Part shown: piece by piece, positions 4,531 through 34,444 of the stretch
How the letters are laid out: each line of letters begins with the position of its first letter
How positions within the stretch are numbered: the first letter of the stretch is position 1
Assembly (NCBI GenBank): GCA_001790815.1
Contig: MGDU01000002.1
Location: 1-37,826, forward strand
Direction: 5' to 3'
Source of the DNA: Candidatus Uhrbacteria bacterium RIFCSPHIGHO2_02_FULL_46_47
GTDB taxonomy: Bacteria; Patescibacteriota; Patescibacteriia; GWA2-47-26
Length of the DNA stretch: 37,826 nt
Translations under genes and position numbers: made by a program
The notes under the pieces: model-generated
Told to the model about the DNA's origin: nothing
Database searches by the model: none
Seen by the model: only the letters and a program-made list of their open reading frames with translations

Positions 4531-4971
4531 ATGAAACGATATTTTTCTAAAAATGAACGCGAGACGATTGGTCTTGCAAAAAAGATTGCCGGCCGCCTGA
4601 AGGGCGGCGAGGTACTGTTGCTTCAAGGCGAGCTGGGGGCCGGTAAAACGACCTTTGTTAAAGGCCTGGCACAGGCGTTTGGAATTAAAGAACGCATTAC
4701 CAGTCCAACCTTTGTGTTGATGCACCAACATAGGATTAAGGATAAAGGATTAAGGATTAAGTACTTTGTGCATTGTGATGCGTACAGAGTGAAAAGCGCG
4801 CGCGAGCTAGGCGATGTGGGACTAATAGATTGGCTTGGAAAGCCTGACACGCTCGTTGTTGTGGAGTGGGGGGAAAAAATAAAACCCCTACTTCGGGGCA
4901 AAAAATATACTACTATCAAATTCCAGCACGGAAAAAAAGAAAACGAACGAATTATAACAATACGTGCTTAA
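4531..4971 (+). CDS. tsaE: tRNA threonylcarbamoyladenosine biosynthesis ATPase TsaE
   Basis: GELGAGKTTFVKGLAQAFGI (Walker A), TSPTFVLM, HCDAYR, VVVEWGEKI; start MKRYFSKNERE inside ORF 4501..4971. Confidence 0.92.
   Translation: MKRYFSKNERETIGLAKKIAGRLKGGEVLLLQGELGAGKTTFVKGLAQAFGIKERITSPTFVLMHQHRIKDKGLRIKYFVHCDAYRVKSARELGDVGLIDWLGKPDTLVVVEWGEKIKPLLRGKKYTTIKFQHGKKENERIITIRA
4731..4761 (+). repeat. low-complexity AGGATTAAGGATTAAGG-type repeat, in frame in tsaE
   Basis: taggattaaggataaaggattaaggattaag encodes RIKDKGLRIK between TSPTFVLMHQH and YFVHCDAYR. Confidence 0.7.
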
Positions 4972-5573
4972 GAAAATTGGGCTTCTTCTTCAAAACGCGG
5001 CGGAGCTTTTCGCATACGATTTCGCCGTTCAAGCTCATCATGTATTCTCTCAATGATTTCCCCAGCATACTTATCAATTTCCCTTAAATACTCCTCTTCA
5101 TTCTCGCGAGGATCTGCTACTTCTCCAATAATAACCTGCGCTTTTGCCCCGCGCATAACCTTTTCTGGATTTGCTGTAACATCCATGGTAATAAGAATTT
5201 CCCCACCGCTTGATTGATACGTTGCAAATCCATCAACACCGTGAAATTTATCAAGTGGAGTATTTACTGCGGTGTATACTTTTACACTATCACTTGTGTC
5301 CGGTGCAAGATTGAGTTGATCAACTATTGCCAATCGTAATTCGCGTAAAAAATCTTTATTAGGATTTGTTGGGTCAGAAGACTGAAAACGCTTTGCGAGT
5401 TCAACTGAGTCCTTAAAGTCAACATATCGTCCGCCCTCACGAATCTGGATTTTATCTGCAAGTGCTCTTTTATAGTTTGGGTCACTTATATTTGCTTCCC
5501 CAAATAAACTCAATTCTAAATCACGCCCTGCGTGTATTCCGTGCTCAATTGATTTCCATTCTGCAGCGCGCAT
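4968..5573 (-). CDS. hypothetical protein (201 aa)
   Basis: Complete ORF, soluble composition, tightly packed upstream of the pilB-like gene's stop. Confidence 0.6.
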   Translation of the reverse strand: MRAAEWKSIEHGIHAGRDLELSLFGEANISDPNYKRALADKIQIREGGRYVDFKDSVELAKRFQSSDPTNPNKDFLRELRLAIVDQLNLAPDTSDSVKVYTAVNTPLDKFHGVDGFATYQSSGGEILITMDVTANPEKVMRGAKAQVIIGEVADPRENEEEYLREIDKYAGEIIERIHDELERRNRMRKAPPRFEEEAQFS

Positions 5574-5576
5574 ATT

Positions 5577-7250
5577 TTATTCTGCAACACTAAAGACTTC
5601 TTCAACCGTGGTAATTCCATCCAAGGCCTTGAGTAATCCGTCTTGTACCATAGTAATCATTCCGTTTTTTACGGCGATTTCCTGCATCACATATTCAGAT
5701 ACTTTTCCTGACAAAATTACTTCTTCTATTTCTTTATTCATCACCATAATCTCATAAATGCCAATGCGGCCTTTATAACCCAAGTCAAAACATTTGGCAC
5801 AACCGCGTCCGTGATAGAATTTTAGCGTATCCAAGGACAGTCCTTGCGGCAAAGGACTGTCCTTGAGTATTTCTTTCACGCGCTGTAATGTTTCTTCATC
5901 CAATTTTATTTCCTCCTTGCACTCCTGATGAATCTTGCGCGCCAGCCGCTGGCCAATAATCGCGTTTAAAGCTGGCGCAAGCAAAAATTGTTTTGCCCCC
6001 AGCGCTAAAAATCGCGGGATGGCTCCGGAAGCAGAATTGGTATGGATTGTGGAAAGAACAAGATGTCCGGTAAGCGCGGCTTGAACTGCAATATCCGCGG
6101 TTTCCAGATCACGAATTTCTCCAATCATCACCACATCTGGATCTTGGCGCAAAATAGAGCGCAGTCCAGTAGCAAAAGTATAGTTTTTGGAAGAATCAAT
6201 CTGGCTTTGAGCAATACCGGCCAGCTTATACTCTACCGGATCTTCAAGAGTAATGATTTTTGTTTCCGGATCATTGAGTTTATTTAAAATCGCATACAAA
6301 GTTGTAGTTTTTCCAGAACCGGTAGGACCGGTTGTAATAATCATGCCATTGGGGCGCTCCACTTCCCGCTTGAGTTGTTCATAAGCGCGGCCGCGTATTC
6401 CAAGATCTTCAAACTGGAGTCCTACGGCAGTAGAACGTAAAAGCCGCATCACGACCGATTCGCCATAGGTTGTGGGAATTGTTGAAACACGCACGTCCAC
6501 GTTTCCTGTTTTTGCAAATATCGTAAACCGGCCATCTTGGGGACGATCCGTTACATTTATTTTCAAACCGGAAAGCAATTTTAGACGCGAAATTATTTTT
6601 GGCCAATCCGCCATGCGGAGTTTTGCCACCACGTGCAAAATCCCATCCAGACGAAAACGAACTACAATCTCTTTCTCCTCGGCTTCAATATGCGCGTCCG
6701 ATGCTTGCGCGGAAAGAGAAGCCCCAACAATAAGAGTAACCAGATCTGTTACGGAAACGCCTTTAAGGCGCGCCTGAAGTTCATCAAACGAACGAAATTC
6801 CTCTCCAAATTTTTTAAGATCATCCTCGGTAATCGCGACACCTTTTGCCAGCGGACGAATTTTGGGAAGTTTTTCATAGAGCTCAAGGGCGTAATTTAAA
6901 CTCTGCTCTGAGATCATATAAATGACCCCACGCGCTTGCGTCCGTTCGCTTATTTGATAGACAAGCTCATCTACAGCGGGATCTTTAGGCGAAAGCGCGC
7001 CAACTCTAAATTCACTTCCTGAATAAAAAAAACATACCGCGTTTGCGGCACGGGCTTGCGTCTCCGGAACAAGGCTAATCGCCTCCGGAGACACTGGAAA
7101 ACCTTTTAAATTTAGATAGGGAGTGCCGGTTGCGGCGGCGGCTCGTTCTACTTCGCCTTCTTTGGCCTTGAGCGCGAGCTCTTTCATTTTTTCTTCAAAT
7201 TTCTCACGCGCTTCTTGCGATGTAACCTGAGGAAGTTGGCTGTTTGCCAT
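5577..7250 (-). CDS. pilB: type II/IV secretion ATPase (GspE/PilB family)
   Basis: GPTGSGKTTTLYAILNKLNDPETKIITLEDPVEY, RSILRQDPDVVMIGEIRDLETADIAVQAALTGHLVLSTIHTN, zinc motif CKEE...CAKC; start MANSQLP preferred over the ORF-track start. Confidence 0.92.
   Translation of the reverse strand: MANSQLPQVTSQEAREKFEEKMKELALKAKEGEVERAAAATGTPYLNLKGFPVSPEAISLVPETQARAANAVCFFYSGSEFRVGALSPKDPAVDELVYQISERTQARGVIYMISEQSLNYALELYEKLPKIRPLAKGVAITEDDLKKFGEEFRSFDELQARLKGVSVTDLVTLIVGASLSAQASDAHIEAEEKEIVVRFRLDGILHVVAKLRMADWPKIISRLKLLSGLKINVTDRPQDGRFTIFAKTGNVDVRVSTIPTTYGESVVMRLLRSTAVGLQFEDLGIRGRAYEQLKREVERPNGMIITTGPTGSGKTTTLYAILNKLNDPETKIITLEDPVEYKLAGIAQSQIDSSKNYTFATGLRSILRQDPDVVMIGEIRDLETADIAVQAALTGHLVLSTIHTNSASGAIPRFLALGAKQFLLAPALNAIIGQRLARKIHQECKEEIKLDEETLQRVKEILKDSPLPQGLSLDTLKFYHGRGCAKCFDLGYKGRIGIYEIMVMNKEIEEVILSGKVSEYVMQEIAVKNGMITMVQDGLLKALDGITTVEEVFSVAE
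5832..5865. repeat. double palindrome, in frame in the pilB-like gene
   Basis: CAAGGACAGTCCTT-gcggca-AAGGACTGTCCTTG: perfect 14-bp inverted repeats; encodes KDSPLPQGLSL. Confidence 0.75.
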
Positions 7251-7254
7251 ACAC

Positions 7255-8235
7255 TCATGCGATTCGGCGATGCAAAATATGCGCAAAACGGGAAGTGAGG
7301 CGAACTATTTTTGCAACTGCGCGCGTCTCCCGAATACGCAGATACAAAAGAACCCAGGCGGCGTATTGAAATGTGACAAAAATGGCTCCTGCAACAATAA
7401 GAAGTAGGATTCCCAAAATCGCGGCGGGAATAATTACAGTCATTAGCCCGCCCGGCACTTTAAGGGATGTAAAGATTAATCCCAGAAGCACAAAAGGAAT
7501 TCCAGCCGCGAAAAGTCCGGCAAGTATGGCTATCCCGACCAGCAGATTAATCACGTAAAGAATAAGCGCGAGCTCTAAAGACACCAGCCAATTACGCGCA
7601 AATAGGCGGATACTTTGACTAAGTGCGCTAAGAAATGGTACTCCCTCAAGAACCACCAGTGCTGACGCATAAATTCCAAGAAGCCCCAAGATGATAGAAA
7701 TCACCGTGACTACAACAAATACGCTGACATATAAAAATAGCTGCGCGGGCGCGGCAGGCCCGGACACAATGGAATTCAGCAAATATATGTACAGCGGAAT
7801 ATCCAGCCGAGTAATAATGCCAATGCCCAAAAGCGGCCAGAATACCTCTGCGCCGCGGCGCAGCGCAACGCGAAGTTGCGCAGGCCGATTTTCATGCCTG
7901 CGCGCCAGTGCGAAAATAAGTCCTCCGCGCGCGGAGGTAACCAGTACGATAAACCCGCCCAATAGCGCAAGCGTTATTAATAAAAAAACCGCGAGTGTTG
8001 CGAGACTTCCCGGAGTAAAATTACTAAGTTGAGGAATCCAGCCTGCGCCACGGCCTTGGATAAGACGTTCTGAGATAGTCGGTCCAACATTTTCAAGCGC
8101 GCGATTAAAAGGCTGGTAAGCGCCAATGCCTCCCCAAAATACCGAGAGAAGCCCAAGCACCCATAACGCTCGATTGCGCCAGGTAAGCTTCCAGGCATTT
8201 CCTAAAATATGACGATATAATGTTCCCTCCTTCAT
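7255..8235 (-). CDS. hypothetical polytopic membrane protein
   Basis: 326 aa with about six hydrophobic segments, lies between ftsH and the pilB-like gene. Confidence 0.7.
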   Translation of the reverse strand: MKEGTLYRHILGNAWKLTWRNRALWVLGLLSVFWGGIGAYQPFNRALENVGPTISERLIQGRGAGWIPQLSNFTPGSLATLAVFLLITLALLGGFIVLVTSARGGLIFALARRHENRPAQLRVALRRGAEVFWPLLGIGIITRLDIPLYIYLLNSIVSGPAAPAQLFLYVSVFVVVTVISIILGLLGIYASALVVLEGVPFLSALSQSIRLFARNWLVSLELALILYVINLLVGIAILAGLFAAGIPFVLLGLIFTSLKVPGGLMTVIIPAAILGILLLIVAGAIFVTFQYAAWVLLYLRIRETRAVAKIVRLTSRFAHILHRRIA

Positions 8236-8244
8236 ATAATTATA

Positions 8245-10152
8245 TTATACCACAGCTCCGCCAAGCTGAGGAATTATTCGTGCTGATTTCTTTATCATCT
8301 TTTGAGGTCCCTTTGCCTTTTTTTCAACTTCCGCCTTTCCTGAAGTGAAAAATGAATCAAACTCCTCTTGTTCAATAGTTTCTTTTTCCAGCAAGCGCGC
8401 CACAATGCGATTAAGAATATCGCGTTTTTCGCGAATGACGCGCTCGGCCGTATAGCGCGCTCCTCGAATAATTTTATCAATCTCTTGGTCAATTACGCGA
8501 GCGATCTCCTCAGAATAATCACGCTGTTCAGTAATTTCACGGCCCAAAAATATCAACTCATCGCGCTCGCCAAAGGTTCGCGGCCCAAGCGTTTCTGACA
8601 TTCCATATTCGGTTACAAGTTTTTTAGCAAGACCAGTCGCGACTTTTAAATCATTCGATGCGCCAGTTGTCACATCGCCAAATACTTCATGCTCCGCAAC
8701 ATACCCGCCTAAAAGCGCTGCGATCTCATCGAGAAATTCCGCGCGCGTTTTCAAATGTCTGTCCTCCGATGGTAATTTAAGCGTATAACCTGCCGCCCGG
8801 CCGCGCGAAACAATGGAAATTTTGCGCACCGGATCCGCGCCGGGAAGTTCGTGACCCACAATCGCATGGCCTCCTTCATGGTAGGCAGTCACTTTTTTTT
8901 CGTTTTCGCTTAGAATATGGCTCTTGCGCTCTGGCCCCAGCATTACCTTTTCAATTGCCTCAATCATCTCTGCCATTCCCACTTCTTTTTTGTTGCGCCG
9001 CGCGGTCAAGATCGCGCCCTCATTAATAAGGTTGGCAAGATCCGCTCCGGAAAATCCCGGCGTGCGCTGGGCAATGGTTTTGAGATTAACATTTTTGGCA
9101 AGCGGCTTTCCTCGAGCATGGATTTTTAAAATTTCCTCGCGATCTTTGATATCCGGAAGATCAAGCACTACTCGGCGATCAAACCGCCCCGGACGAAGCA
9201 GCGCCGGATCAAGAATATCCGGCCGGTTGGTTGCCGCCATAACGATAATTCCCACATGCGGATCAAACCCGTCCATCTCCACCAGGATTTGATTAAGCGT
9301 TTGCTCACGCTCATCATGGCTACCGCCTAGTCCTGAGCCCCGCTGACGGCCAACCGCATCAATCTCATCAATAAAGAGAATGCAAGGCGCGGCTTTTTTT
9401 GCTTTACGGAAAAGGTCGCGCACCCGGCTGGCGCCTACTCCCACAAACATTTCCACAAACTCTGATCCGGCAATATGAAAGAACGGCACGTTCGCCTCTC
9501 CGGCTACCGCGCGGGCAAGAAGCGTCTTGCCGGTTCCCGGAGATCCCATGAGCAACACTCCTTTGGGAATTTTTGCGCCAAGTACGGTAAACTTTTTTGG
9601 ATTTTTTAAAAACTCAACAATCTCGCGCAGCTCTTCTTTTGATTCTTCAAGTCCGGCGACATCTTTGAATGCTACGCGATTCTTTGCCTCCGGCGTTACT
9701 TCGCGCGCGCCGGATTGTCCAAACGACATCGCGCGATTGTTCACCCCCTGGACTTGACGCATCATGAAAAAAATTACCAGTCCAATCAAGAAAAACGGAA
9801 TTAAAAATGGCAAAAGCACGGAAATCCAGTAACCGAATCCACTCTGCCTTTTGACCGCAACTTCAATCCCCTGCACTGCCTCAGGGGCAACTCCATAATT
9901 TTTAAGAAGCGAAGAAAGTGACTCGCCGGATTCTTTTTGTGCCACTTCTTTAGCTCCGCTTTTCAGTTCTATAAGTAAAGAGTCGCCTTTTATTTCAATG
10001 CGGCGCACTTCGCCTGAACGTACTTGCGTTATAAGCTTTCCAACATCAATACGCTCCGCAGTTGCCCCACCCATTTGAAAAGTGGAAAGTACTCCGGCAA
10101 TAACAAGAAGCGCAAGGATGAACAAAATAAAATTACGGAAAAGAGTAGGCAT
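8245..10152 (-). CDS. ftsH: ATP-dependent zinc metalloprotease FtsH
   Basis: [49 protein letters not shown] region, HEGGHAIVG zinc motif. Confidence 0.98.
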
Positions 10153-10160
10153 AGGTATGG

Positions 10161-10232
10161 AACCACAGATATTGTTGACACAGATCGCACAGATGAGTAT
10201 CTGTGTTATCTGTGAGGATTTAATCTGTGGTT
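10161..10232. repeat. ACCACAGAT...ATCTGTGGT repeat (imperfect long hairpin)
   Basis: aaccacagatattgttgacacagatcgcacagatgagtatctgtgttatctgtgaggatttaatctgtggtt; tandem CACAGAT and inverted ATCTGTG units. Confidence 0.75.
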
Positions 10233-10239
10233 TTGCTTA

Positions 10240-11400: not shown

Positions 11401-11405
11401 GTTAG

Positions 11406-11509
11406 TTAAGAATTATGCCCGCCCAAATTTTTGCTCCCGCCCCAACTCGCTCAAACGAGTTACAGTCGGGCAGGTCGCAAAAACTTCAGTCGGGTGTATT
11501 AAGAATTAT
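11406..11509. repeat. small inverted-repeat element flanked by 11-bp direct repeats (TTAAGAATTAT), MITE-like
   Basis: TTAAGAATTAT at 11406-11416 and 11499-11509 bracket gcccgcccaaatttttgctcccgcc...ggtcgcaaaaacttcagtcgggtgta, whose ends are inverted. Confidence 0.6.
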
Positions 11510-16343: not shown

Positions 16344-18317
16344 ATGAATGTTGCGGAATTAGCACGACGACTTCGCGTATCTCCAAATGAGCTCAAGACT
16401 ATGCTTCCTGAGCTTGGTTTTCATATTGGTATGCGCGCGATCAAAGTTGATGATCGCACGGCCTGGAGAATTATTGAAAATTGGCCGGCCCTGATGCGGC
16501 AATGGCGCGCAAAACATGGCACTCCCGAAGTAGCAAAAGTAGAAGAAGGTCCAAAAGTTAAAAAAGAGGTAATGCTTCCGGCCGTACTTACCGTTCGCGA
16601 TTTTGCCGCCCGCCTTGGCCTTCCCATCACCCGCGTTATGGGAGAGCTTATGAAAAATGGCATTCTTGCGGCAATGAACGAGCGCATTGATTTTACAACT
16701 GCTTCCATTATCGCGCAGGATCTTGGCTTTATCGTAAAAGAAGAAAAAAAAGATCAAATTGCTGAAGAAATAACCACGGATGTCATTCGCGAGCGCATTT
16801 TGCAAGAGCAGGAGGATAACCTTGTGGCGCGGCCGCCAGTTGTGGTTGTTATGGGTCATGTTGATCACGGCAAAACTACTCTTCTGGATGCCATTCGAAA
16901 AACCAATGTGGTTTCAGGCGAGGCAGGCGGCATTACTCAACATATTGGCGCATATCAGACTATAAAAAAAGATCGTCCCATAACCTTCATAGATACACCC
17001 GGGCATGAAGCCTTTACCACCATGCGTAGCCGCGGGGCGCGGGTGGCCGATGTGGCGATTTTAATTGTGGCGGCCGATGATGGAGTTCAACCGCAAACGC
17101 GTGAAGCGCTTAAAATTATTGAAGCCGCAAAACTTCCCTTTGCCGTGGCTGTCAATAAAATAGATAAGCCCGGCGCGGATCCTGATAAAGTAAAGCGCGA
17201 ATTGGGAGAATTAGGAATAATTCCGGAGCAGTGGGGCGGCAAAATTCCGTTTGTGCCAATCTCCGCTAAAGCCGGCACAGGCATTGATTCGCTGTTAGAC
17301 GTAATTCTCCTTCTTGCGGATTTGGAAAAAGAGCGCACTCTTGCCAATCCGGATGCTTACGCGCTGGGCACCGTTATTGAATCGCATGTTTCTTCGGGTG
17401 AAGGAGCAGTGGCAACTGTGCTTATTCAAAATGGAACGCTTAAACGCAATGACGCCCTCGCGATCGGCTCTTCTCTTTATGGACGCGTGCGGGCCATGAA
17501 AGATTGGTCAGGAAAAACGATTGCGAGCGCTCCTCCGGGCATGCCAGTTAAAATTTTGGGTTTCAAAGTCGCTCCTGAAGTTGGAGATATTGTTGAGGTA
17601 CCGCTTGACGTAAGGAAACTGGAAACTAAAAAAGTCGTACCGACCTATAAAGAAGGAACGGCAAAAATTTCCAAGGTGATTGAGGCAAGCGAGGCGCAAA
17701 CTTTCGTCAACGTGATTGTAAAAGCCGATGTGCTGGGGTCGCTGGAGGCAGTTTTGGCTTCTCTTGAAAAACTGCAAACCCCGGAGGTCGCGGTAAAAGT
17801 GGTTGCCAAGGGTCTTGGCAATATCAATGAAGCAGAAGTGCTCCAAGGAGCAGTATCAAAGGCGATTGTATATGGATTTAACGTGGCCATCCTTCCACAA
17901 GTCGCAGACCTTGCCCGCGAGAAAGCGGTGGAGGTCCAAAACTACAAAATCATTTATGAATTGCTAGATGATGTGCGTGGACGGCTTGAAGCGCTTCTTA
18001 AGCCTGAGGTTATTCGCATGAGTCTTGGCAAACTGAAAGTTCTTGCCATATTTCGCGCGGAAAAAAATTATGCTATTATAGGAGGGCGTGTTGAGGATGG
18101 AAAAGCAGTGAAGGGAGCAAAGGTAAAAATTGCGCGCGCAGGTTCAGAGATCGGCGAAGGAACAATTACCGAATTGCAATCTGCTAAACAGCCGGTAGCT
18201 GAAGTTCCAGGCGGATCTGAATGTGGACTGCGCGTTACTACCAAAATCACAATTGAGGTTGGCGACGTGCTTGAGATATATAAGGAAGATAAAAAAGAGA
18301 GAAAATTACAATTATGA
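16344..18317 (+). CDS. infB: translation initiation factor IF-2
   Basis: VVVMGHVDHGKTTLLDAIRKTNVVSGEAGGITQHIGAYQ, FIDTPGHEAFTTMRSRGARVADV; start MNVAELARRLRVSP preferred over 16302. Confidence 0.97.
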   Translation: MNVAELARRLRVSPNELKTMLPELGFHIGMRAIKVDDRTAWRIIENWPALMRQWRAKHGTPEVAKVEEGPKVKKEVMLPAVLTVRDFAARLGLPITRVMGELMKNGILAAMNERIDFTTASIIAQDLGFIVKEEKKDQIAEEITTDVIRERILQEQEDNLVARPPVVVVMGHVDHGKTTLLDAIRKTNVVSGEAGGITQHIGAYQTIKKDRPITFIDTPGHEAFTTMRSRGARVADVAILIVAADDGVQPQTREALKIIEAAKLPFAVAVNKIDKPGADPDKVKRELGELGIIPEQWGGKIPFVPISAKAGTGIDSLLDVILLLADLEKERTLANPDAYALGTVIESHVSSGEGAVATVLIQNGTLKRNDALAIGSSLYGRVRAMKDWSGKTIASAPPGMPVKILGFKVAPEVGDIVEVPLDVRKLETKKVVPTYKEGTAKISKVIEASEAQTFVNVIVKADVLGSLEAVLASLEKLQTPEVAVKVVAKGLGNINEAEVLQGAVSKAIVYGFNVAILPQVADLAREKAVEVQNYKIIYELLDDVRGRLEALLKPEVIRMSLGKLKVLAIFRAEKNYAIIGGRVEDGKAVKGAKVKIARAGSEIGEGTITELQSAKQPVAEVPGGSECGLRVTTKITIEVGDVLEIYKEDKKERKLQL

Positions 18318-18403
18318 TACGAATCAGCGAATGAGTGACGAATCTACAAATATACAAATTCGCATATTCGTTGATTCGCCAAAAATTCGTAAATTCGTAT
18401 CAT
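18314..18403. repeat. GAATTCG-type inverted repeat filling the infB-trxA gap
   Basis: Ends ATGATACGAAT (18314-18324) and ATTCGTATCAT (18393-18403) are perfect 11-bp inverted repeats; interior has repeated GCGAAT/AATTCG words. Confidence 0.75.
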
Positions 18404-18406
18404 ATT

Positions 18407-18727
18407 ATGCTTACACTCACCGATCAAAATTTCCAAACTGAAGTGCTTAACTCAAAAAAACCTGTTCTTGTAGATTTTTGGGCGCCGTGGTGCGGACCTT
18501 GCAAAATAATGGGGCCGGTAGTTGAGGAGCTGGCCAAAGAATACGCTGGCAAGCCCGTAAAATTTGGCAAAATGAATGTGGATGAAAATTCCGCCATACC
18601 TTCAAAATTCGGAGTAATGTCCATTCCCACTTTTATTCTTTTTAAAGACGGCAAACCTGTTGAACAATTCGTGGGAGTACAGAAAAAAGAATATCTTCAA
18701 AAAAAGCTTGATGCTTTGATTAAATAG
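18407..18727 (+). CDS. trxA: thioredoxin
   Basis: VLVDFWAPWCGPCKIMGPVVEELA, FGVMSIPTFILFKDGKPV. Confidence 0.96.
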   Translation: MLTLTDQNFQTEVLNSKKPVLVDFWAPWCGPCKIMGPVVEELAKEYAGKPVKFGKMNVDENSAIPSKFGVMSIPTFILFKDGKPVEQFVGVQKKEYLQKKLDALIK

Positions 18728-18765
18728 TGTGGTCTGCGCCGGCTAAAGACCGGCGACTACCTATT
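18728..18765. repeat. GCGCCGGctaaagaCCGGCG hairpin between trxA and trxB
   Basis: gcgccggctaaagaccggcgactacc; same style as the tgtagtcgcaggtcttcagcctgcg unit at 28723. Confidence 0.6.
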
Positions 18766-18774
18766 GCGCACACT

Positions 18775-24395: not shown

Positions 24396-26510
24396 ATGTC
24401 AAAACGCCGCCGCAAATCCCAACCTCCTCCGCTTATCCAGCCCGAATCGCGCCGGGAAATTGTCATGATTTTTTTGTTTACTTTGGCCGGACTATTCCTT
24501 CTTTCATATTTTGGCATTGCCGGGCAAGCCGGAACATTTATTGACAGCGCGCTTAAAGGATTTTTGGGAATATTGCGGCCAGCCCTTCCGCTTGCCATCA
24601 TTGCCGCCGGCGCGTTTTTTGGAAGCACTAAGCCGCGCGGCGCCGCTATTTTTGGCAGTATTTTATTTCTTGCCAGCACCGCCGGGCTTTTGCATCTTAT
24701 TGAATATCCCGGGGAAGCCGGAATAAAGGCCGTGGCGCAAGGATTGGGCGGCGGTTATGTAGGGCTTTTTCTGGCCTACCCGCTTTTTCAAATTTTTGGA
24801 CCTTGGGCTGGCTTGATAATTCTCACGGCCCTGCTTTTGGTTTCACTTTCGCTAATTTTTTCCGCGCCGCTTACCGCGTTTCTTTCATCCGGGCATAAAG
24901 CTTTGCGCGCTATTGGTAAACTCAGCGCGTTTTTTGTGCGCTTATTTACTCGACCAAAAATTCATGGTGAATATGAAGATAAACCAGTACAGCAGGAATT
25001 GGAATTTGAGGAACATACGATTGCAGAACCAGAAAAAGAGGCAAAACCACAGATTGGGGAAAACACAAATAACACTGATACATCCATAGAATCTGTGCCA
25101 AAAATATCTGTGGCTCCGCGCCGTCGCCTTGGACGCATTGAATTGCCGCTTGATCTTTTGGAAAAAAATGGGAGTAAACCGGTTTCTGGAAATATTCGCG
25201 AGCGCCAAGAAATAATTGAAAAAACCCTTAAAAATTTTGGCATTGATGTTGATATGGGGGATGTTTCGGTTGGCCCAACGGTTACGCAGTATACTTTGCG
25301 GCCGGCTGACGGGGTAAAACTTGCGGCAATAACCGCTCTTTCCAATGACTTGGCCCTTGCTCTGGCCGCGCATCCCATTCGCATTGAAGCCCCAATTCCA
25401 GGCAAATCTCTGGTTGGCATTGAAGTGCCTAATGAGCAAGTTGGCGCCGTGCGCTTGCGCGAAATTTTAGAGTCGCCAGAATGGCAAAAGCGCGCCTCGC
25501 CATTAAACATTGTGCTGGGTCGTGATGTTTCAGGAAAACCTTGGTGCGCGGATTTGCCGCGCATGCCGCACCTCCTGGTTGCGGGCTCAACTGGCTCGGG
25601 GAAAACCGTGTGTTTGAATACCATTATTCTTTCCCTACTTTATCAAAATAGTCCGGATGATTTAAAACTAATGCTTATTGACCCCAAGCGAGTGGAGCTT
25701 CCGGCCTACAACGGCATTCCGCATTTGATCAGTCCAGTTATTACGGATGTAAAACAAACTGTGCAGGCCTTGCGCTGGGCTATTATGGAAATGGAAAGGC
25801 GTTTTGAAACTTTGTCCGACTCCGGCTCGCGCGATATAAAAAGTTTTAATGAAGGACATCCGGCTGAGGAACGCATGCCGTACCTTGTGATTGTCGTTGA
25901 TGAGCTGGCGGATCTGATGGTTGCCGCGGCCTCCGAAGTGGAAGGATCAATTATCCGCTTAGCACAAATGGCGCGGGCAGTTGGCATTCATCTTATTTTA
26001 GCCACCCAGCGTCCTTCAGTTGACGTTATTACCGGACTTATCAAAGCCAACATTACCTCGCGCATTGCGTTTTCGGTTGCCTCACTGATTGATTCGCGCA
26101 CCATTCTTGATACCTCCGGCGCGGAAAAACTTTTAGGGCGCGGCGACATGTTATTTATCAACTCCGAGCTGGGCAAACCCAAACGTTTGCAAGGCGCTTA
26201 TATTTCCGAACAAGAAATCCGACGCGTAGTTGAATATTTGAAAAAAGCCGGGTCTCCGGAATATCTTGATCTGCAAGTACAAAGCAGTTTGGCCATGACT
26301 CCAGCCGGAGGCAGTAGCGATGAAAATGACGACTTGCTTCCGGAGGCCAAAGATATTATTTTGCAAGCTGGCAAAGCCTCGGCATCACTGCTTCAGCGCC
26401 GTTTAAAAGTCGGCTATGCCCGCGCCGCACGCATGCTTGATCTTCTTGAAGCCGAAGGCTTTATTGGCCCTGGCGAAGGCGCTAAACCGCGAGAAATACT
26501 AGCCCCGTAG
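24396..26510 (+). CDS. ftsK: DNA translocase FtsK/SpoIIIE
   Basis: HLLVAGSTGSGKTVCLNTIILSLLY, LMLIDPKRVELPAYNGIPHL, VIVVDELADLMV, ATQRPSVDVITGLIKANI, C-terminal gamma-like winged helix; start MSKRRRK chosen after the terminator. Confidence 0.96.
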   Translation: MSKRRRKSQPPPLIQPESRREIVMIFLFTLAGLFLLSYFGIAGQAGTFIDSALKGFLGILRPALPLAIIAAGAFFGSTKPRGAAIFGSILFLASTAGLLHLIEYPGEAGIKAVAQGLGGGYVGLFLAYPLFQIFGPWAGLIILTALLLVSLSLIFSAPLTAFLSSGHKALRAIGKLSAFFVRLFTRPKIHGEYEDKPVQQELEFEEHTIAEPEKEAKPQIGENTNNTDTSIESVPKISVAPRRRLGRIELPLDLLEKNGSKPVSGNIRERQEIIEKTLKNFGIDVDMGDVSVGPTVTQYTLRPADGVKLAAITALSNDLALALAAHPIRIEAPIPGKSLVGIEVPNEQVGAVRLREILESPEWQKRASPLNIVLGRDVSGKPWCADLPRMPHLLVAGSTGSGKTVCLNTIILSLLYQNSPDDLKLMLIDPKRVELPAYNGIPHLISPVITDVKQTVQALRWAIMEMERRFETLSDSGSRDIKSFNEGHPAEERMPYLVIVVDELADLMVAAASEVEGSIIRLAQMARAVGIHLILATQRPSVDVITGLIKANITSRIAFSVASLIDSRTILDTSGAEKLLGRGDMLFINSELGKPKRLQGAYISEQEIRRVVEYLKKAGSPEYLDLQVQSSLAMTPAGGSSDENDDLLPEAKDIILQAGKASASLLQRRLKVGYARAARMLDLLEAEGFIGPGEGAKPREILAP
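25046..25113. repeat. degenerate ACCACAGAT...ATCTGTGG repeat, in frame in the ftsK linker
   Basis: accacagattggggaaaacacaaataacactgatacatccatagaatctgtgccaaaaatatctgtgg. Confidence 0.6.
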
Positions 26511-27984: not shown

Positions 27985-28013
27985 TATGTAGTATGTAGTG
28001 GGTGGTATGTAGA

Positions 28014-28039
28014 CAAAAAGGCGGCTAGCCGCCTTTTTG
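28014..28039. terminator. bidirectional intrinsic terminator between convergent recA and efp
   Basis: CAAAAAGGCGGCTAGCCGCCTTTTTG, perfect 26-bp palindrome. Confidence 0.92.
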
Positions 28040-28061
28040 TTGCTTTCTATGTTTCTACCTA

Positions 28062-28625
28062 CTACGTACTACGTTCTACATACTCCCCCGTATCCGTATT
28101 GATAATCACCAGATCCCCTTCTTTAATAAACATCGGCGCGCGGACTTTCAGGCCGTTTTCCAGCACAATTTCCTTGGTTACATTGCCGGAAGTATCCCCT
28201 TTGACTGCCGGCGGCGCCTCCGTTACTTTGAGCGTTACTTTTTTGGGAAAATCCACGGTAATCGGCGTGCCGCTCTCGTCCACCAAAAGCGTTACTTCCA
28301 CTCCTTCTTTCAAAAATTTTGCCGCCTCGCCAACAACATCCGGCCCAATTGAAAACTGCTCGTAGGTTTTCATGTCCATGAAAGTATGTTCGGCAGGAGT
28401 CCCGTACAGATACTGCACTTTTTTGCGCTCCATTTCCACAAACTCCACGGCCTCATCGGATTTAAAAGTATTTTCTACCACTTTGCCGGTCTTTAAGGCT
28501 TTAAGTTTTGAACGCACAAAGGCCGAGCCCTTGCCTGGGTTTACATGCTGAAAATCAACTACCAAATGTGGCTCATTTTTATAATTGATGATAAGCCCTC
28601 GTGAAATTTCATTTGCTTTGGACAT
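28062..28625 (-). CDS. efp: elongation factor P
   Basis: MSKANEISRGLIINYKNEPHLVVDFQHVNPGKGSAFVRSKLKALKTGKVVENTFKS...TGEYVERST; modifiable Lys in the PGKG loop. Confidence 0.97.
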   Translation of the reverse strand: MSKANEISRGLIINYKNEPHLVVDFQHVNPGKGSAFVRSKLKALKTGKVVENTFKSDEAVEFVEMERKKVQYLYGTPAEHTFMDMKTYEQFSIGPDVVGEAAKFLKEGVEVTLLVDESGTPITVDFPKKVTLKVTEAPPAVKGDTSGNVTKEIVLENGLKVRAPMFIKEGDLVIINTDTGEYVERST

Positions 28626-28722
28626 AAATATAATGCCAATATACAAATTTCATGCCAATCTACGAATTGCGAATAATGTGGACACTGTACATGAATATGC
28701 GATTTTTGACAAGTATATATGT

Positions 28723-28831
28723 TGTAGTCGCAGGTCTTCAGCCTGCGCAATTGTAGCGCGGGGTTTTATGCCCCGCTAAGATTGCGGCACACAAGGTGCC
28801 GCGCTACGCAACCTAAAGAGTTGCGGCTACA
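28723..28831. repeat. composite of several hairpins (TGTAGTCGCAGG...TTGCGGCTACA) between epmA and efp
   Basis: tgtagtcgcaggtcttcagcctgcgcaattgtagcgcggggttttatgccccgctaagattgcggcacacaaggtgccgcgctacgcaacctaaagagttgcggctaca. Confidence 0.8.
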
Positions 28832-29942
28832 TTTTTTTAAATATTTCGCTTGCCGGAAACGCCAGCACATCCTCAATTCGCGCGGCATTTGTTAAAAGCA
28901 TTACCAAACGATCCACGCCAAAGGCAATTCCGGACGAGGGCGGCATGTGGCCAACCGCGTCCAGAAAATCCTCATCCAAGGGAATGGGTTCTTTGCCCAA
29001 TTGTTTGCGCAGTTTCTGCTCTTCTATAAATCTACGGCGTTGCTCTTGTGCATCATTAAGCTCTGAAAATGCATTACCAAGTTCTATGCCGGCAATATAG
29101 ACCTCAAACCGCTCTGCCACCCCTTCACCGGTCCTTCGTCCTTCCTCTCCCTCAGGGAGAGGAACCTGTTTTTCCCCCTCTCCCTTTATGGGAGAGGGTT
29201 GGGGTGAGGGTTTTAGCCGCGCCAGCGCGGCCATAGATACTGGATAATCATACAAAATGGTTGGCTTTGGATATCCAAGCTTTGGCTCTATTTCATTTAA
29301 AAATATCTTGAAAAATAAATCATCATAGGTATCATTGGCTTTTACCGCGTATCCACGCTCCCCACACAAACGACTCAAATATGTGCGATCGCAAATAGTT
29401 GAGCCGTTTGAAATGTGGGCGTATTTCTCCCACGCCTGCTGCATGGTCAGCCGCTCCCATGGAGAAGAAAGATCAATCATCTTTCCCTGATACTCAGTTG
29501 CTTCAATGTTTTTATGTCCTAGTGCGTTGATGACATAGGTTACCATCTTCTCGACATCTTCCATAATCAAATAGTAGTCCGCGTTCGCGCGGTACCATTC
29601 AAGCATGGTAAATTCCGGGTTATGCAATCCGCCAAAATGCTCGCCGGCGCGAAACGCGCGGGTAATTTCAAAAGTTTTTTCAAATCCCGCGGCCAACAAT
29701 TTTTTATGACTATACTCCGGCGAGGTAATTAAATATCCTTGTTTGCGGTGGCCCTGCTCATCCCAAAATTCTATTTTGAACGGATTTAAATATGGCTCTT
29801 GGCCGGCCGACGGCACAACTATCGGCGTTTCCACTTCCAAAAATCCCTCTTTAATAAAAAACTCGCGGATGAGTTGTACAATCCGCGCGCGCGTCTTTAA
29901 CCTTTCTTGTAGTTGTTTATCCTGCAACCTTTTCCATGACAT
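28827..29942 (-). CDS. epmA: EpmA-type (PoxA/GenX) class II lysyl-tRNA synthetase paralog, predicted EF-P beta-lysine ligase
   Basis: Catalytic core only (371 aa, no N-terminal OB anticodon domain): ITSPEYSHKKLLAAGFEKTFEITRAFRAGE, HNPEFTMLEWYRANADY, TILYDYPVSMAALARL, VAERFEVYIAGIELGNAFSELNDAQEQRRRF, SGIAFGVDRLVMLL. Confidence 0.85.
   Translation of the reverse strand: MSWKRLQDKQLQERLKTRARIVQLIREFFIKEGFLEVETPIVVPSAGQEPYLNPFKIEFWDEQGHRKQGYLITSPEYSHKKLLAAGFEKTFEITRAFRAGEHFGGLHNPEFTMLEWYRANADYYLIMEDVEKMVTYVINALGHKNIEATEYQGKMIDLSSPWERLTMQQAWEKYAHISNGSTICDRTYLSRLCGERGYAVKANDTYDDLFFKIFLNEIEPKLGYPKPTILYDYPVSMAALARLKPSPQPSPIKGEGEKQVPLPEGEEGRRTGEGVAERFEVYIAGIELGNAFSELNDAQEQRRRFIEEQKLRKQLGKEPIPLDEDFLDAVGHMPPSSGIAFGVDRLVMLLTNAARIEDVLAFPASEIFKKM
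29119..29212. repeat. GC-rich palindromic insert, in frame in the epmA-like gene
   Basis: cccccttcaccggtcc...cctctccctcagggagagg...ccccctctccctttatgggagagggttggggtgagggt; encodes KPSPQPSPIKGEGEKQVPLPEGEEGRRTGEG. Confidence 0.88.
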
Positions 29943-29945
29943 ACC

Positions 29946-30161
29946 TTATTCCGGCATATAGGGCATCAAGGCCAGTGTGCGCGCGTGCTTGATTGCTCGG
30001 GCAACTTTGCGCTGATGTTTGGCACAAAGACCGGATCTTCGCTGAGGCATAATCTTCATGCCAGCGGAAACAAAACGCTTGAGTAAATTTACGTCCTTAA
30101 AATCAGGACCGGTACTATTATTCACGCAAAAATAACATGGTTTTTCTTGAATTGATGCCAT
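29946..30161 (-). CDS. rpsR: 30S ribosomal protein S18
   Basis: CYFC...DFKDVNLLKRFVSAGMKIMPQRRSGLCAKHQRKVARAIKHARTLALMPY. Confidence 0.95.
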   Translation of the reverse strand: MASIQEKPCYFCVNNSTGPDFKDVNLLKRFVSAGMKIMPQRRSGLCAKHQRKVARAIKHARTLALMPYMPE

Positions 30162-30163
30162 AA

Positions 30164-30607
30164 TTAAAATGGAATTGCTTCTACTTTAATTCCCTCATCA
30201 TCATCAGGGGGTGGCGGAGAACTTACTGGCTCAGCCATTGCCGCAGGATGTATGGCTGGGCTTCCAGCACTTGTACCGCCGGCGCGATCAAGCATTTGCA
30301 TGCTCTCCAGCACAATTTCAGTGCGCTGTTTTTCACTGCCGTCCTGAGCTTGCCATTTGCGAGTTTGCAAACGCCCCTCGGCATAAATCTTTTTGCCTTT
30401 GGTTAAATATTGTCCACAAATTTCCGCGAGCTTGCCCCAGGCCACGATATTATGAAACTCGGCTTGATCTTGTTTCACACCTTCTTTATCAGTATAGCGG
30501 CGATTGGTTGCCAAACCAAATGAGCACACGCTTTGTCCGCCCGGAGTGGTGCGCACCTCAGGCTGTCGCGTGACATTTCCAATTAGCATTGCTTTATTCA
30601 AATTCAT
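30164..30607 (-). CDS. ssb: single-stranded DNA-binding protein
   Basis: MNLNKAMLIGNVTRQPEVRTTPGGQSVCSFGLATNRRY...EFHNIVAWGKLAEICGQYLTKGKKIYAEGRLQTRKW. Confidence 0.95.
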   Translation of the reverse strand: MNLNKAMLIGNVTRQPEVRTTPGGQSVCSFGLATNRRYTDKEGVKQDQAEFHNIVAWGKLAEICGQYLTKGKKIYAEGRLQTRKWQAQDGSEKQRTEIVLESMQMLDRAGGTSAGSPAIHPAAMAEPVSSPPPPDDDEGIKVEAIPF

Positions 30608-30634
30608 AATTTTACATTTTGCATTTTACATTTT

Positions 30635-31135
30635 TCATTCTCCAAGAATCTGCTCTAGTCGTTTATCAAGCTCTTCCATAGAAACTTTGGGCGTAGCTTC
30701 TTTTACTATAGTTTCTTGACTCAGAGTTGAGGGGGCAACTGGAGAGGTCGGCATAGGAGCTTTAAATACTCCCGCAGAAACTGGTTGAGGTACGCGTGGC
30801 GTGCGTCCCGGTGCAACCCGTGGCTGAGACGGTGCAAATGCTTTAAACTCCCCGGCTAATTTTGAAATGGTAAACCGCAGTACTTCGCCTGAAAGAATAA
30901 GCGCGCGTCGAAATTCCGCAACTACTTTTGGCTCCATCTCAAACTGAATCATCTGGTAATATCCTTGACGCACTGTTTCTAAAGCATAGGCCAGCGGGCC
31001 TTTTTGAAGCGACGTGCTTGCGTGAACCGTGCCGTGAGCGCCGCTAATTCGCTCTTCAATCTTTAGCGCAAGTGCTTTCATTTCCTCATCCGTGCCGGTC
31101 AAAGGAAATAGTGCCAATAATTCATATTTCTGCAT
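30635..31135 (-). CDS. rpsF: 30S ribosomal protein S6 with C-terminal extension
   Basis: MQKYELLALFPLTGTDEEM...KGPLAYALETVRQGYYQMIQFEMEP; position in canonical rpsF-ssb-rpsR order. Confidence 0.9.
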   Translation of the reverse strand: MQKYELLALFPLTGTDEEMKALALKIEERISGAHGTVHASTSLQKGPLAYALETVRQGYYQMIQFEMEPKVVAEFRRALILSGEVLRFTISKLAGEFKAFAPSQPRVAPGRTPRVPQPVSAGVFKAPMPTSPVAPSTLSQETIVKEATPKVSMEELDKRLEQILGE

Positions 31136-31204
31136 AGTGGGGCTATAATAACATGGCCTTAAAACCCTGTCAATATGAACTAAGCCATGGTATGATGCGA
31201 CAAT

Positions 31205-32656
31205 ATGAAGCACTTCTTTATTCTCGGCAGAAATCCAGAACTTAGTCTTGCGGAGCTTCATGCAGTACTGCCAAGCGGATGGAAACCGGTGGCAGTCTCA
31301 CACGAAGTGCTGATGGCAGAGTGTGCGGAGTTTGATGTGCAAGAAATAATGAAAAGATTAGGAGGGACAGTAAAGATGGGGAAAATTATTTCTCATAACC
31401 CCTCCCAACCTCCCTCGCCTCGCTTTGCGGGCGAAGCGGGCCTTATCTCCGACGCTACGGTACGGAGTCCGACTGAAACGTCGGACTTAAGGGGAGGGAA
31501 ACCGCTAGAACCCCCTCTTAGGGTAAGAGGGGGTGGGGGGAGTTACGAAGATGTGCTTGCTGCACTCTCTGCACTACATCTTCACGATAGAAAAATCTTC
31601 TTTGGTCTTAGCGCTTATGCTCTTGATGAAAAAACGCGTTTGCCCAATGTGCGACAACTCCGTGAGCTTGGCATTGAAGTAAAACGTGCACTTCAAGAAT
31701 CCGGACACAAGGTGCGTCTAGTTACTTCACGCGAAGTTGCCCTTTCCTCAGTTATAGTGAAAAAAGAAAAATTGCTTACCCAGGGCGCAGAAATTGTTTT
31801 GTTTTATGGCACTCCTAATACAAATCAATCTTCTACGTCCTACATACTACGTACTAACTTTATCGGCCGCACGCTTGCGGTGCAAGAATTTGAAGAAGCA
31901 AGCATACGCGATTTTGGCCGACCAGCACGTTCTATGCGGGTCGGTATGTTGCCGATTCAATTGGCCAAGATTCTTATCAATCTTGCCCGTGCTCCGCGTA
32001 CCGCGACTCTGCTTGATCCCTTTTGCGGCTTAGGCACAATTCTAACTGAAGCAACGCTCATGGGTTATAAAAATTTAATTGGTTCTGACATTGATCCGCA
32101 TATGATAGACGCGACTCGCCGCAACCTCGAATGGCTTCGCCAATTTCCTCCCCTTAAGGTAAGGCCCGCTTCGCCCGCAAAGCGAGGCGAGGGAGGTGAG
32201 GAGGGGTTACGAGATGCTCATAACCTACCCCAGCCCTCCCTTACCTTAAGGGAGGGGGCTGTGGAGGAACTTTCAAAACATCTTACCCCGCGATCAGTTG
32301 ACGCAATTATTACCGAGCCGTATATGGGACCAACCAGGGGAATTAGGAATTATGAATTAGGAATTATGAATGAATTAACTAAATTGTATGTTTCTGCATT
32401 CTATGAGTTTGCAAAAATACTGAAATCTGGCGGAAAAGTGGTCTTCATCTTCCCCGCCTTTAACAACGCCGGACAGATCACTAAAACCTCTGCCCAAGTT
32501 TTACCCCAAATAAAAAAATTGGGCTTCACCCCAACCCCCCTCCTCCTTCAAAATATTTCTACATCCTACCTACTACCTACTACCTACTCAATAACCTACT
32601 CCCGCCCTGACCAACGCGTCCTACGCGAGATTTTCGTTTTCACATTTCAATCTTAG
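31205..32656 (+). CDS. Trm11/TrmG10-like (UPF0020) RNA methyltransferase carrying multiple repeat-derived inserts
   Basis: MKHFFILGRNPELSLAELHAVLP, DFGRPARSMRVGMLPIQLAKILINLAR, LLDPFCGLGTILTEATLMGYKNLIGSDIDPHMIDATRRNLEWL, ITEPYMGP. Confidence 0.85.
   Translation: MKHFFILGRNPELSLAELHAVLPSGWKPVAVSHEVLMAECAEFDVQEIMKRLGGTVKMGKIISHNPSQPPSPRFAGEAGLISDATVRSPTETSDLRGGKPLEPPLRVRGGGGSYEDVLAALSALHLHDRKIFFGLSAYALDEKTRLPNVRQLRELGIEVKRALQESGHKVRLVTSREVALSSVIVKKEKLLTQGAEIVLFYGTPNTNQSSTSYILRTNFIGRTLAVQEFEEASIRDFGRPARSMRVGMLPIQLAKILINLARAPRTATLLDPFCGLGTILTEATLMGYKNLIGSDIDPHMIDATRRNLEWLRQFPPLKVRPASPAKRGEGGEEGLRDAHNLPQPSLTLREGAVEELSKHLTPRSVDAIITEPYMGPTRGIRNYELGIMNELTKLYVSAFYEFAKILKSGGKVVFIFPAFNNAGQITKTSAQVLPQIKKLGFTPTPLLLQNISTSYLLPTTYSITYSRPDQRVLREIFVFTFQS
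31399..31541. repeat. composite GC-rich palindromic insert, in frame in the methyltransferase
   Basis: cccctcccaacctccctcgcctcgctttgcgggcgaagcgggcc...tccgacgctacggtacggagtccgactgaaacgtcggacttaaggggaggg...ccccctcttagggtaagagggggtgggggg. Confidence 0.88.
32142..32266. repeat. second composite GC-rich palindromic insert, in frame in the methyltransferase
   Basis: Includes 38-bp exact reverse complement (32160-32197) of 31408-31445 plus ccctcccttaccttaagggaggg. Confidence 0.9.
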
Positions 32657-33200
32657 CGCTCCTCCATATACTCGTAAGTGCTTGCGCTTCAACCTGTTGC
32701 TTAATATATTTCATGTCTAACGCGTCACCAGCCCGCTTAAGAACTGAACGCGCATCTTCCAAGTGGTGCTCACCACCACCGAGCTTGTGCCAACGCATCT
32801 TGCTTAAAATCAGATCTTCCGCTGAAATAAAATAAACTTTCACCCCGCGAATCGTCATGACTTTTCTGCGAGCCAATTCTCGCGCGGCATACGTATCGCC
32901 TTTTGATATAAAAAAATCTATTTTTATTCCACTCTCCGGGTGTATAACATTAAATTCACTCCGTAAAAGTAACGCGGACCTCATCATCTGTTCATCGGCA
33001 TATACATCCTTGCCGATTTTTCGCAACTCTTTTGCGAGTTTAGCAATGTCAGGGTGTGCGAGCTGAATCACCACATCAATATCAAATGTAGCTCGCGGTC
33101 TTCCCCAGACAGACACGGCATAGCCGCCCGTCACAAAATAAGGGGTCCCAAGCTTATTCAGCGCTTTCGCGGTTCGTACGAGAAGTTGTTCGAAATCCAT
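32640..33200 (-). CDS. nucleotidyltransferase (AbiEii/DUF6036-like)
   Basis: LGTPYFVTGGYAVSVWGRPRATFDIDVVIQLA (GG...D.D motif), DLILSKMRWHKLGGGEHHLEDARSVL. Confidence 0.8.
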   Translation of the reverse strand: MDFEQLLVRTAKALNKLGTPYFVTGGYAVSVWGRPRATFDIDVVIQLAHPDIAKLAKELRKIGKDVYADEQMMRSALLLRSEFNVIHPESGIKIDFFISKGDTYAARELARRKVMTIRGVKVYFISAEDLILSKMRWHKLGGGEHHLEDARSVLKRAGDALDMKYIKQQVEAQALTSIWRSAKIEM

Positions 33201-33336
33201 GTTTATGTGAATTTGAGAGTCGTATTAAAAATATTGAGAAATCCGAGGCAAGCTTTATTGTCTTTGCTCCCGTCATTTTGCGCCAAATATTATATTGTTG
33301 ATCTTCTACATTTAATACCACCTTCGTGTGTGCCAT
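33154..33336 (-). CDS. small protein preceding the nucleotidyltransferase
   Basis: MAHTKVVLNVEDQQYNIWRKMTGAKTIKLASDFSIFLIRLSNSHKHG; 3' end overlaps the nucleotidyltransferase start in another frame. Confidence 0.55.
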   Translation of the reverse strand: MAHTKVVLNVEDQQYNIWRKMTGAKTIKLASDFSIFLIRLSNSHKHGFRTTSRTNRESAE

Positions 33337-33355
33337 ATTTACATATCATACCACA

Positions 33356-34444
33356 TTAAACCGTAACCCTGAAATGCACCACATCGCCGTCTTGCATTTC
33401 GTAATCTTTTCCCTCCAGCCGTAGTAATCCTTTTTCTTTAGCCGCGGATTCTCCGCCGCTTTGCACAAAATCTTTGGAATTAAAAACTTCCGCCCGAATA
33501 AATGCCTTTTCAAAATCTGAATGAATTACCCCGGCGGCTTGCGGGGCTTTGGTACCTTTGGGCACAGTCCAAGCCCGGGTTTCTTTTGGCCCGCTGGTAA
33601 AAAAAGTAATAAGTTCAAGCAATTTGTACGCGGCAACAATCAGTTGATCCAGACCGGATTGCGTCATTCCTAAATCTTTCATCATTTGCTGTACATCTTC
33701 TTGCGGCAATTCGGCCAACTCGCTTTCAATCTTGGCCGACACCACCACGCGCGGTCCAGGAAGTGTATTGTCCAGGGCTAAGCCCTGTGCATCTTTAGGG
33801 CTTAGCCCTGTGTCGGGTTCGTCCACATTATAAACATACAAAACCGGCTTTACCGTCAAAAGATGCAGATCGCGCACAACCTCTTGTTCATCTTCACTTA
33901 AAATTCCGCGCACCCATTTGCCTTGATTCAAACCATCTTTGGTTTTGTCCAAAATTTCTTTCAGTTTAATTGCGTCTTTGTGTCCGGACTTGGCTTCGCC
34001 GGAAACATCAGATAACCGCTTCTCCACAGTTTTCAAATCTGCCATAGCCAGCTCAATTCCAATTACTTCAATGTCGCTTTTCGGATCAGGTTTGCCGTGC
34101 ACATGAATAACATTAGGATCAGAAAACACGCGCACCAATTGCGCAATAGCATCCACCTCGCGAATATGCGATAAAAATTGATTGCCCAGGCCTTCGCCAG
34201 TACTGGCCCCGCGCACGAGTCCGGCAATATCATAAAATTCAATGGTGGTTGGAATAATTTTTTCCGATTTGGAAACCCGCGCTAGATCTTGCAAGCGTTC
34301 ATCCGGAACTTCAACCACGCCCACATTGGGGTCAATGGTGGCAAAGGGATAATTGGCAATCAAGACGCTCTTTTTTGTAAGCGCCTTAAATAAAGTTGAT
34401 TTGCCAACATTAGGAAGCCCAACAATACCAATGGAAAAACTCAT
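33356..34444 (-). CDS. ychF: ribosome-binding GTPase YchF/OLA1
   Basis: MSFSIGIVGLPNVGKSTLFKALTKK, PFATIDPNVGVVEVPDERL, GEGLGNQFLSHIREVDAIAQLVR, TGS-type C-terminus. Confidence 0.97.
   Translation of the reverse strand: MSFSIGIVGLPNVGKSTLFKALTKKSVLIANYPFATIDPNVGVVEVPDERLQDLARVSKSEKIIPTTIEFYDIAGLVRGASTGEGLGNQFLSHIREVDAIAQLVRVFSDPNVIHVHGKPDPKSDIEVIGIELAMADLKTVEKRLSDVSGEAKSGHKDAIKLKEILDKTKDGLNQGKWVRGILSEDEQEVVRDLHLLTVKPVLYVYNVDEPDTGLSPKDAQGLALDNTLPGPRVVVSAKIESELAELPQEDVQQMMKDLGMTQSGLDQLIVAAYKLLELITFFTSGPKETRAWTVPKGTKAPQAAGVIHSDFEKAFIRAEVFNSKDFVQSGGESAAKEKGLLRLEGKDYEMQDGDVVHFRVTV
33773..33810. repeat. double palindrome, in frame in ychF
   Basis: CAGGGCTAAGCCCT-gtgcatcttt-AGGGCTTAGCCCTG, perfect 14-bp inverted repeats; encodes TGLSPKDAQGLALD. 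Confidence 0.85.

Follow-up and report, generated by a model that had tools for sequence, protein, structure and literature searches.

Short repeats that lie in frame within conserved genes raise the question of whether one process or several placed them there, and how they come to survive in coding DNA. The window, by which we mean the whole 37,826 nt stretch of Candidatus Uhrbacteria bacterium RIFCSPHIGHO2_02_FULL_46_47 analysed here, is contig C2 of its own genome (designated G000; 1.02 Mb in 27 contigs), which looks Patescibacteria-like in size and gene content, and a first-pass annotation had described such DNA in at least eight of its genes. Two genomes representing other genera of the same family, G001 and G002, formed the comparison set; proteins of these sister genera share only about 50–80 % identity. 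About 438, 361 and 396 kb of G000, G001 and G002, respectively, were sampled, and most G000 counts rest on the 438 kb sample out of 1.02 Mb.

Repeat blocks in the genes of the window

Repeat features of the window are collected in Table 1. Repeat or palindromic DNA was confirmed in seven of the eight genes named by the first-pass annotation (tsaE, pilB, trxB, gdhA, epmA, ychF and the gene for a Trm11-like methyltransferase) but not in ftsK (24270–26510), where neither repeat blocks nor strong hairpins were found and the motor region aligned without an insert. Residues had been said to be added in all of these proteins; a net gain was clear for tsaE, trxB, gdhA, epmA and the Trm11-like gene, whereas pilB and ychF contain palindromes with no net gain in length. 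Alignment with close homologues had been proposed as a check; alignment with solved homologues mapped unmatched stretches in TrxB (residues 89–118 and 243–272), GdhA (about 160–172 and 209–230), the EpmA/LysS-like protein (245–273) and TsaE (about 6 residues). The Trm11-like protein contains five repeat blocks; its core alone matched solved relatives, and the extra segments were visible in alignment with class homologues. YchF, at 362 aa against 363 aa in solved YchF, is colinear with it and yet contains an R2 REP doublet, and the corresponding slot in G001 holds a long insert. PilB is colinear with solved PilB despite the perfect 34-nt palindrome in its gene, the core of which occurs at five loci in the G000 sample, one of them in ileS. 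The ychF and pilB blocks replace loop sequence and do not lengthen the loops; this does not look like clean insertion and counts against the insertion reading that we favour below.

An Rfam scan across the window returned no match. The interval 21200–24200 is nearly repeat-free and has a foreign look, and a GC-rich block at about 22590–22985 contains short ORFs, one of which encodes a possible zinc-ribbon protein (CPRCGEDLL).

Table 1. Repeat features of the window, with positions counted from its first letter
Feature	Position	Strand	Evidence and remarks
tsaE heptamer array, AGGATTA x4, peptide RIKDKGLRIK	4731–4766	+	TRF; lag-7 scan; about 6 extra residues against solved TsaE
pilB perfect 34-nt palindrome, 14-bp stem	5832–5865		Repeat inventory; PilB length unchanged
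ftsH–rpsA intergenic CACAGAT-type repeat, halves inverted	10160–10236		Self-repeat coverage
infB–trxA intergenic imperfect palindrome, AATTCGT-like units	18311–18411		Inverted repeat; repeat coverage 13
trxA–trxB GTAG-tagged REP (R3)	18733–18766	-	Cognate RAYT L132, contig C27
trxB insert 1, triplex-type doublet	19025–19122	-	Strict TM_ECO match 19036–19070; pLDDT<50 at residues 89–113
trxB insert 2, related C/G-rich doublet	19499–19590		Alignments; pLDDT<50 at residues 252–270
gdhA heptamer array, AAAATGT, peptide QCKMKNVECKN	20329–20359	+	Lag-7 scan; extra residues
gdhA C/G-rich triplex-like hairpin	20477–20541		Repeat coverage 41; extra residues
recA–efp junction heptamer array, ACGTACT	28052–28084		Lag-7 scan
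AATTCGT-class repeat, efp start/upstream	28618–28677		Repeat inventory
efp–epmA cluster of GTAG-tagged REPs (R3)	28717–28834		Sequence reading; repeat inventory
epmA insert, triplex-type doublet	29118–29214		Strict TM_ECO match 29176–29210; extra residues
epmA 41-nt imperfect palindrome, centre GCGATCGC	29369–29409		Repeat coverage 3
rpsF–ssb heptamer array, TTTTACA/TTTTGCA	30601–30644		TRF; lag-7 scan
Trm11-like insert 1, composite C/G-rich element, inner hairpin	31391–31549		Inverted repeat; alignment; pLDDT<50 at residues 66–111
Trm11-like heptamer-like CTACNTA units, STSYILRTN	31830–31858	+	DNA reading; extra residues; pLDDT<50 at 206–215; under array threshold
Trm11-like insert 2, C/G-rich composite that repeats part of insert 1 in inverted orientation	32146–32259		Alignment; pLDDT<50 at 325–339
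Trm11-like heptamer array, GAATTAG/GAATTAT, GIRNYELGIMN	32337–32374	+	TRF; lag-7 scan
Trm11-like heptamer array, CTACCTA, STSYLLPTTYS	32556–32594	+	Lag-7 scan; pLDDT<50 at 452–459
ychF inverted REP doublet AGGGCTAAGCCCT/AGGGCTTAGCCCT, family R2, loop	33770–33811		Cognate RAYT L089, contig C25

Several further claims held up: the inserts comprise unrelated classes (REP palindromes, C/G-rich triplex-type repeats and heptamer arrays), the same DNA types also lie between genes, the reading frame is kept across the inserts and these are placed in probable loops. The last point was checked by AlphaFold2 for two proteins. In the TrxB model, pLDDT fell below 50 only at residues 89–113 and 252–270, both inside inserts and each between two beta strands, and the rest of the model matched thioredoxin reductase (8cci/5uth) with a target-normalized TM-score of 0.96; the model thus keeps the TrxB fold intact and places the inserts in turns predicted to be disordered. 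Low-confidence segments of the Trm11-like model overlapped four of its five repeat blocks. An alignment of 13 TrxB sequences lacked both inserts in all 10 class homologues from outside the window's family, whilst at site 2 the window has a C/G-rich doublet, G001 has a C/G-rich block unlike it and G002 has a short stretch resembling heptamers. Judged from these alignments, the inserts are lineage-specific.

No gene split at a repeat was found in the G000, G001 and G002 samples; genes that seemed to be split had the look of antisense or rRNA artefacts and showed no repeat at the break. This bears on whether the blocks might be removed before or during translation by ribosome bypass or splicing, which we regard as extremely improbable. 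The blocks do contain strong hairpins, and hairpin bypass elements have precedent in other systems, but the copies checked keep the frame open, which bypass would not need, and no conserved gene was broken at a repeat in the three genomes.

Repeat families and their candidate sources

Three Y1_Tnp (PF01797) genes were identified in G000, and the palindrome families R1, R2 and R3 were each found to have a Y1 (HUH) transposase gene flanked by their own palindromes. The gene at L073 has GGAAGCTGAGCTTCC on its flanks and an in-frame copy inside, as does the gene at L089 with CAGGGCTTAGCCCTG (family R2), and the gene at L132 lies among GTAG-tagged REPs (R3) like those of the trxA–trxB and efp–epmA intervals of the window. 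On reading, the GTAG tag was clear at the hairpin foot in R3; neither GTAG nor GGAG was evident in R1 and R2. The R2 core AGGGCTNAGCCCT occurred at 40 sites genome-wide in G000 (reversed pattern, 0), mostly as inverted doublets spaced by 18–24 nt; 19 of the 23 loci seen were in ORFs longer than 200 aa, and the doublets flanking the transposase gene were outside long ORFs. The hairpins, the inverted doublets, the single cognate Y1 gene per family and the GTAG tag of R3 liken these families to the REP/REPIN-RAYT (TnpA_REP) system, although REPs elsewhere are mostly intergenic (PMC3733652) and the R2 copies here are mostly intragenic.

Approximately 10 of the 17 RAYT genes examined in related genomes contain an in-frame, palindrome-like sequence that also occurs in their own flank, as published for RAYT subclass 2.4, where REPs lie in frame inside the transposase gene (PMC6006769). 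In L073:2778–3524, L089:152–838, L147, L152 and L155 an in-frame copy of the gene's own flanking palindrome lies in a similar position upstream of the MPNHFH motif; the genomes share this slot but differ in the palindrome sequence. Whilst the pairing of REP family and gene was observed directly, movement of R1–R3 by the resident RAYT/Y1 single-strand transposases would follow the REP/RAYT literature, and the analogy with RAYT systems already published supports it well. No RAYT flanked by triplex-type repeats or heptamers was seen among the G000 RAYT loci, and G002, a 100 % complete genome, had no Y1_Tnp matches.

The C/G-rich class matches, strictly or loosely, TM_ECO (CCCTCNCCCN3-6GGGNGAGGGN3GGGNGAGGG), an intrastrand triplex motif (Holder et al. 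2015, PMC4666352), and on the strength of this sequence identity its members would be expected to fold as triplexes. Exact matches numbered 22 in G000, 22 in G002 and none in G001 (reversed control, 0). Two strict matches fall in the window, in trxB and epmA, and more loosely related to the motif are trxB insert 2 and the blocks of gdhA and the Trm11-like gene. Both the exact motif and the inverted tandem arrangement are shared with TM_ECO of E. coli, a motif said to be present in more than 260 genomes. The core is patchy over the class (G000, G002, G009 and G013), so that it was probably not inherited from an ancestor of the class. Some E. coli genomes also contain the triplex-type element, as do some enterobacterial plasmids, and on plasmids it lies mostly outside annotated genes. 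An intragenic case on E. coli chromosomes is a doublet inside the ornithine lipid gene olsF, and a doublet lies under cas3f on plasmid NZ_CP022424.1 of Vitreoscilla filiformis.

Period-7 arrays numbered 57, 23 and 68 in the samples of G000, G001 and G002. In the 438 kb of G000, other periods up to 15 gave 0–6 arrays, except for the harmonic 14 (25 arrays), and shuffled DNA gave none. Periods other than 7 and 14 were likewise rare in G001 and G002, except that G002 also displayed 19 period-8 arrays and some of period 9. Units were of many types, with about four to six copies per array. Heptamer abundance was ruled out as a class trait because arrays were few outside the family, with ~22 period-7 arrays per Mb in 39 other class genomes (17 in 781 kb) compared with 64–172 in the window's family. 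Exact copies of one array, GTGAACT x4, were found in no fewer than 115 stretches, which belong to many phyla. Inverted pairs of arrays a few bases apart were common (e.g. L082:12176–12247, L075:17983–18061 and L079:7564–7645) and would fold as long hairpins. In their period of 7, frequent four-unit length, many sites and inverted pairs, the arrays resemble the heptamers of Xanthomonas and Nostoc (PMC4692102) and TAACTGA of Beggiatoaceae (PMC4679880). Those published heptamers also favour four units, yet they lie mainly between genes and involve one or a few unit types in each genome, whereas many types occur here and more than half of the arrays are in ORFs. Polymerase slippage has been proposed for heptameric simple repeats (PMC4692102), and the arrays of about four units may have arisen through slippage or copying.

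R1–R3 have their own RAYTs, and G002, without any Y1_Tnp match, is still rich in triplex-type repeats and heptamers, so that the same outcome arises from at least two processes and probably from three. That the repeats are an artefact of assembly or binning is hardly credible: the contigs are draft, but the pattern recurs in three separate genomes that represent different genera, reading frames would not survive such errors, the R2 REP has its matching RAYT, and the same heptamer and triplex-type motifs are present in isolate genomes.

Insertion slots shared between genera

Across the three genera, 171 ortholog groups, with antisense ORFs removed, yielded 121 slots, defined as places between conserved flanks where lengths differed by 5 residues or more. 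Repeats were recognized via within-genome self-similarity or period 7, and very low-copy families are therefore missed. Repeat DNA was present in 89 of 207 slot rows (43 %; rows of at least 7 residues) compared with 35 of 2,176 random in-ORF segments (1.6 %), an odds ratio of 46. G000 displayed 45 inserts in 30 of the 171 conserved genes sampled, including those for LepA, IleS, ArgS, Tgt, UvrA and TsaD. Repeat DNA within genes is accordingly a genome-wide and family-wide pattern.

Comparison with sister genomes had also been proposed, and in G001 and G002, which belong to different genera, the same slots often hold other repeats. Repeat-filled slots common to G000 and G002 numbered 19, against 1.8 expected under uniform placement (maximum of 7 in 2,000 simulations), and none of the 19 slot pairs shared an 11-mer, which implies that inserts arrived independently, or were wholly replaced, at shared tolerant sites. 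In the Trm11-like gene, for example, the slot of the GAATTAG/GAATTAT array holds a GAGATTC array in G002. Related genera thus often refill one slot with an unrelated repeat. A null in which inserts of a gene are placed within whichever of its slots vary in length gave 19.9 expected against 20 seen, a comparison that is partly circular because the slots are partly defined by the inserts themselves. In a probable 23S rRNA segment (L095:2365–2498, compared with L091:15198–15308), hairpin length differs between G000 and G001, possibly owing to repeat insertion in rRNA.

The occupation of the same slots by unrelated classes could be taken as the mark of a single general machinery, and the first-pass annotation had drawn one general insertion process from the variety of classes. 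This was not supported, and we consider it very improbable, as each of the three REP families has a cognate RAYT of its own, G002 contains triplex-type repeats and heptamers with no Y1_Tnp match, and slot sharing equals the expectation among length-variable slots of the same gene, with the circularity noted above. Slightly less improbable is that the inserted peptides are useful, as adaptive loops or interaction tags, and were kept by selection. Persistence of the inserts in conserved, mostly essential enzymes of a 1-Mb genome would fit such a role, but the peptides in the same slots of sister genera are unrelated, outgroups have none, and the models are disordered at the inserts.

Coding location and its meaning

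We consider it likely that several independent families of short repeats inserted recently and specifically in this lineage, and that these copies survived in frame in tolerant loops. Insertion would occur regardless of gene borders, and purifying selection would then keep only those copies that leave the frame intact, contain no stops and lie in tolerant loops. As such loops are few, different families would come to occupy the same slots across lineages. What the classes share is this filter, survival in frame within loops that tolerate inserts; they do not form a single new mobile family. Sense-strand heptamer units were found in the stop-free orientation in 31 cases versus 12 (p about 0.005).

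A model with the filter only predicts that genes are depleted of repeats, and the counts stand against it. With triplex-type repeats counted as intragenic when they lay in an ORF of 150 aa or more and had 20 aa or more on either side, strict copies were intragenic in 17 of 17 cases in the G000 sample and 8 of 10 in G002, and 47 of 49 copies were intragenic under the looser pattern in the G000 sample. Random 40-mers fell in ORF calls at a rate of 83.6 % (at a limit of 120 aa, slightly unlike the 150 aa used for the triplex type), and the excess of the triplex type had a p of about 0.01. R2 repeats and heptamers were close to random; 63–83 % of heptamers were inside ORFs, with no depletion in conserved genes. 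Taking 47 of 49 at face value, genic copies have been kept about 4.6-fold better than intergenic ones, and frame alone gives at most one third. A second factor is needed because intergenic copies are so scarce, and this may be fast intergenic loss in a streamlined genome or coding-biased insertion.

Insertion that is itself biased towards coding DNA, for instance through transcription, a single-stranded template or microhomology, is possible but unlikely. The triplex-type excess, the location of most R2 REPs in long ORFs and the lack of heptamer depletion in conserved genes all favour it. However, R3 REPs of G000 follow a more classical pattern with just 43 % intragenic, so that the bias is not general, the heptamers of G000 are mildly depleted in ORFs (37 of 54), and differential loss of intergenic copies gives the same picture. 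We hold with similar doubt the broader proposal that, family-wide, repeats are placed preferentially in coding DNA or kept there several-fold better, so that essential proteins would go on gaining new loops through in-frame repeat capture.

Insertions of several repeat families surviving in tolerant loops, the reading we favour, have precedents. Several in-frame palindrome families (RPE) were already known in one genus, Rickettsia (PMC3733652, citing Ogata and Claverie). As described in that source, RPE and their Wolbachia equivalent resemble the present families in being palindromic, in frame in unrelated conserved genes and also intergenic. They differ from the present case, which concerns another lineage, also includes non-palindromic heptamer arrays and a TM_ECO-matching motif, and displays re-use of slots by unrelated families in sister genera. 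Intragenic GTAG/CGTC REPs, including in uvrA, have been reported in Opitutus terrae and Rickettsia conorii, with tolerance in linkers or loops suggested (PMC3733652); only a minority of REPs are intragenic there, in contrast to a majority of R2 and triplex-type repeats here, and several repeat kinds are involved. The triplex-type motif presents a reversal of location, as 23 of 23 TM_ECO copies are intergenic in E. coli MG1655 (PMC4666352), whereas all sampled strict copies of G000 are in long ORFs, many in conserved enzymes. In sum, the repeat kinds themselves are known, and what is new is their coding location, the re-use of slots and the in-frame heptamers.

The reversal, from all intergenic in MG1655 to nearly all intragenic here, lets one ask whether genes are targeted or intergenic copies are purged, and the finding also lets one ask what makes heptamer arrays. 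The shared slots also map, without any experiment, which loops tolerate insertion. In a streamlined genome, selection against repeats within genes can break down on a broad front, for several repeat kinds and in essential enzymes.
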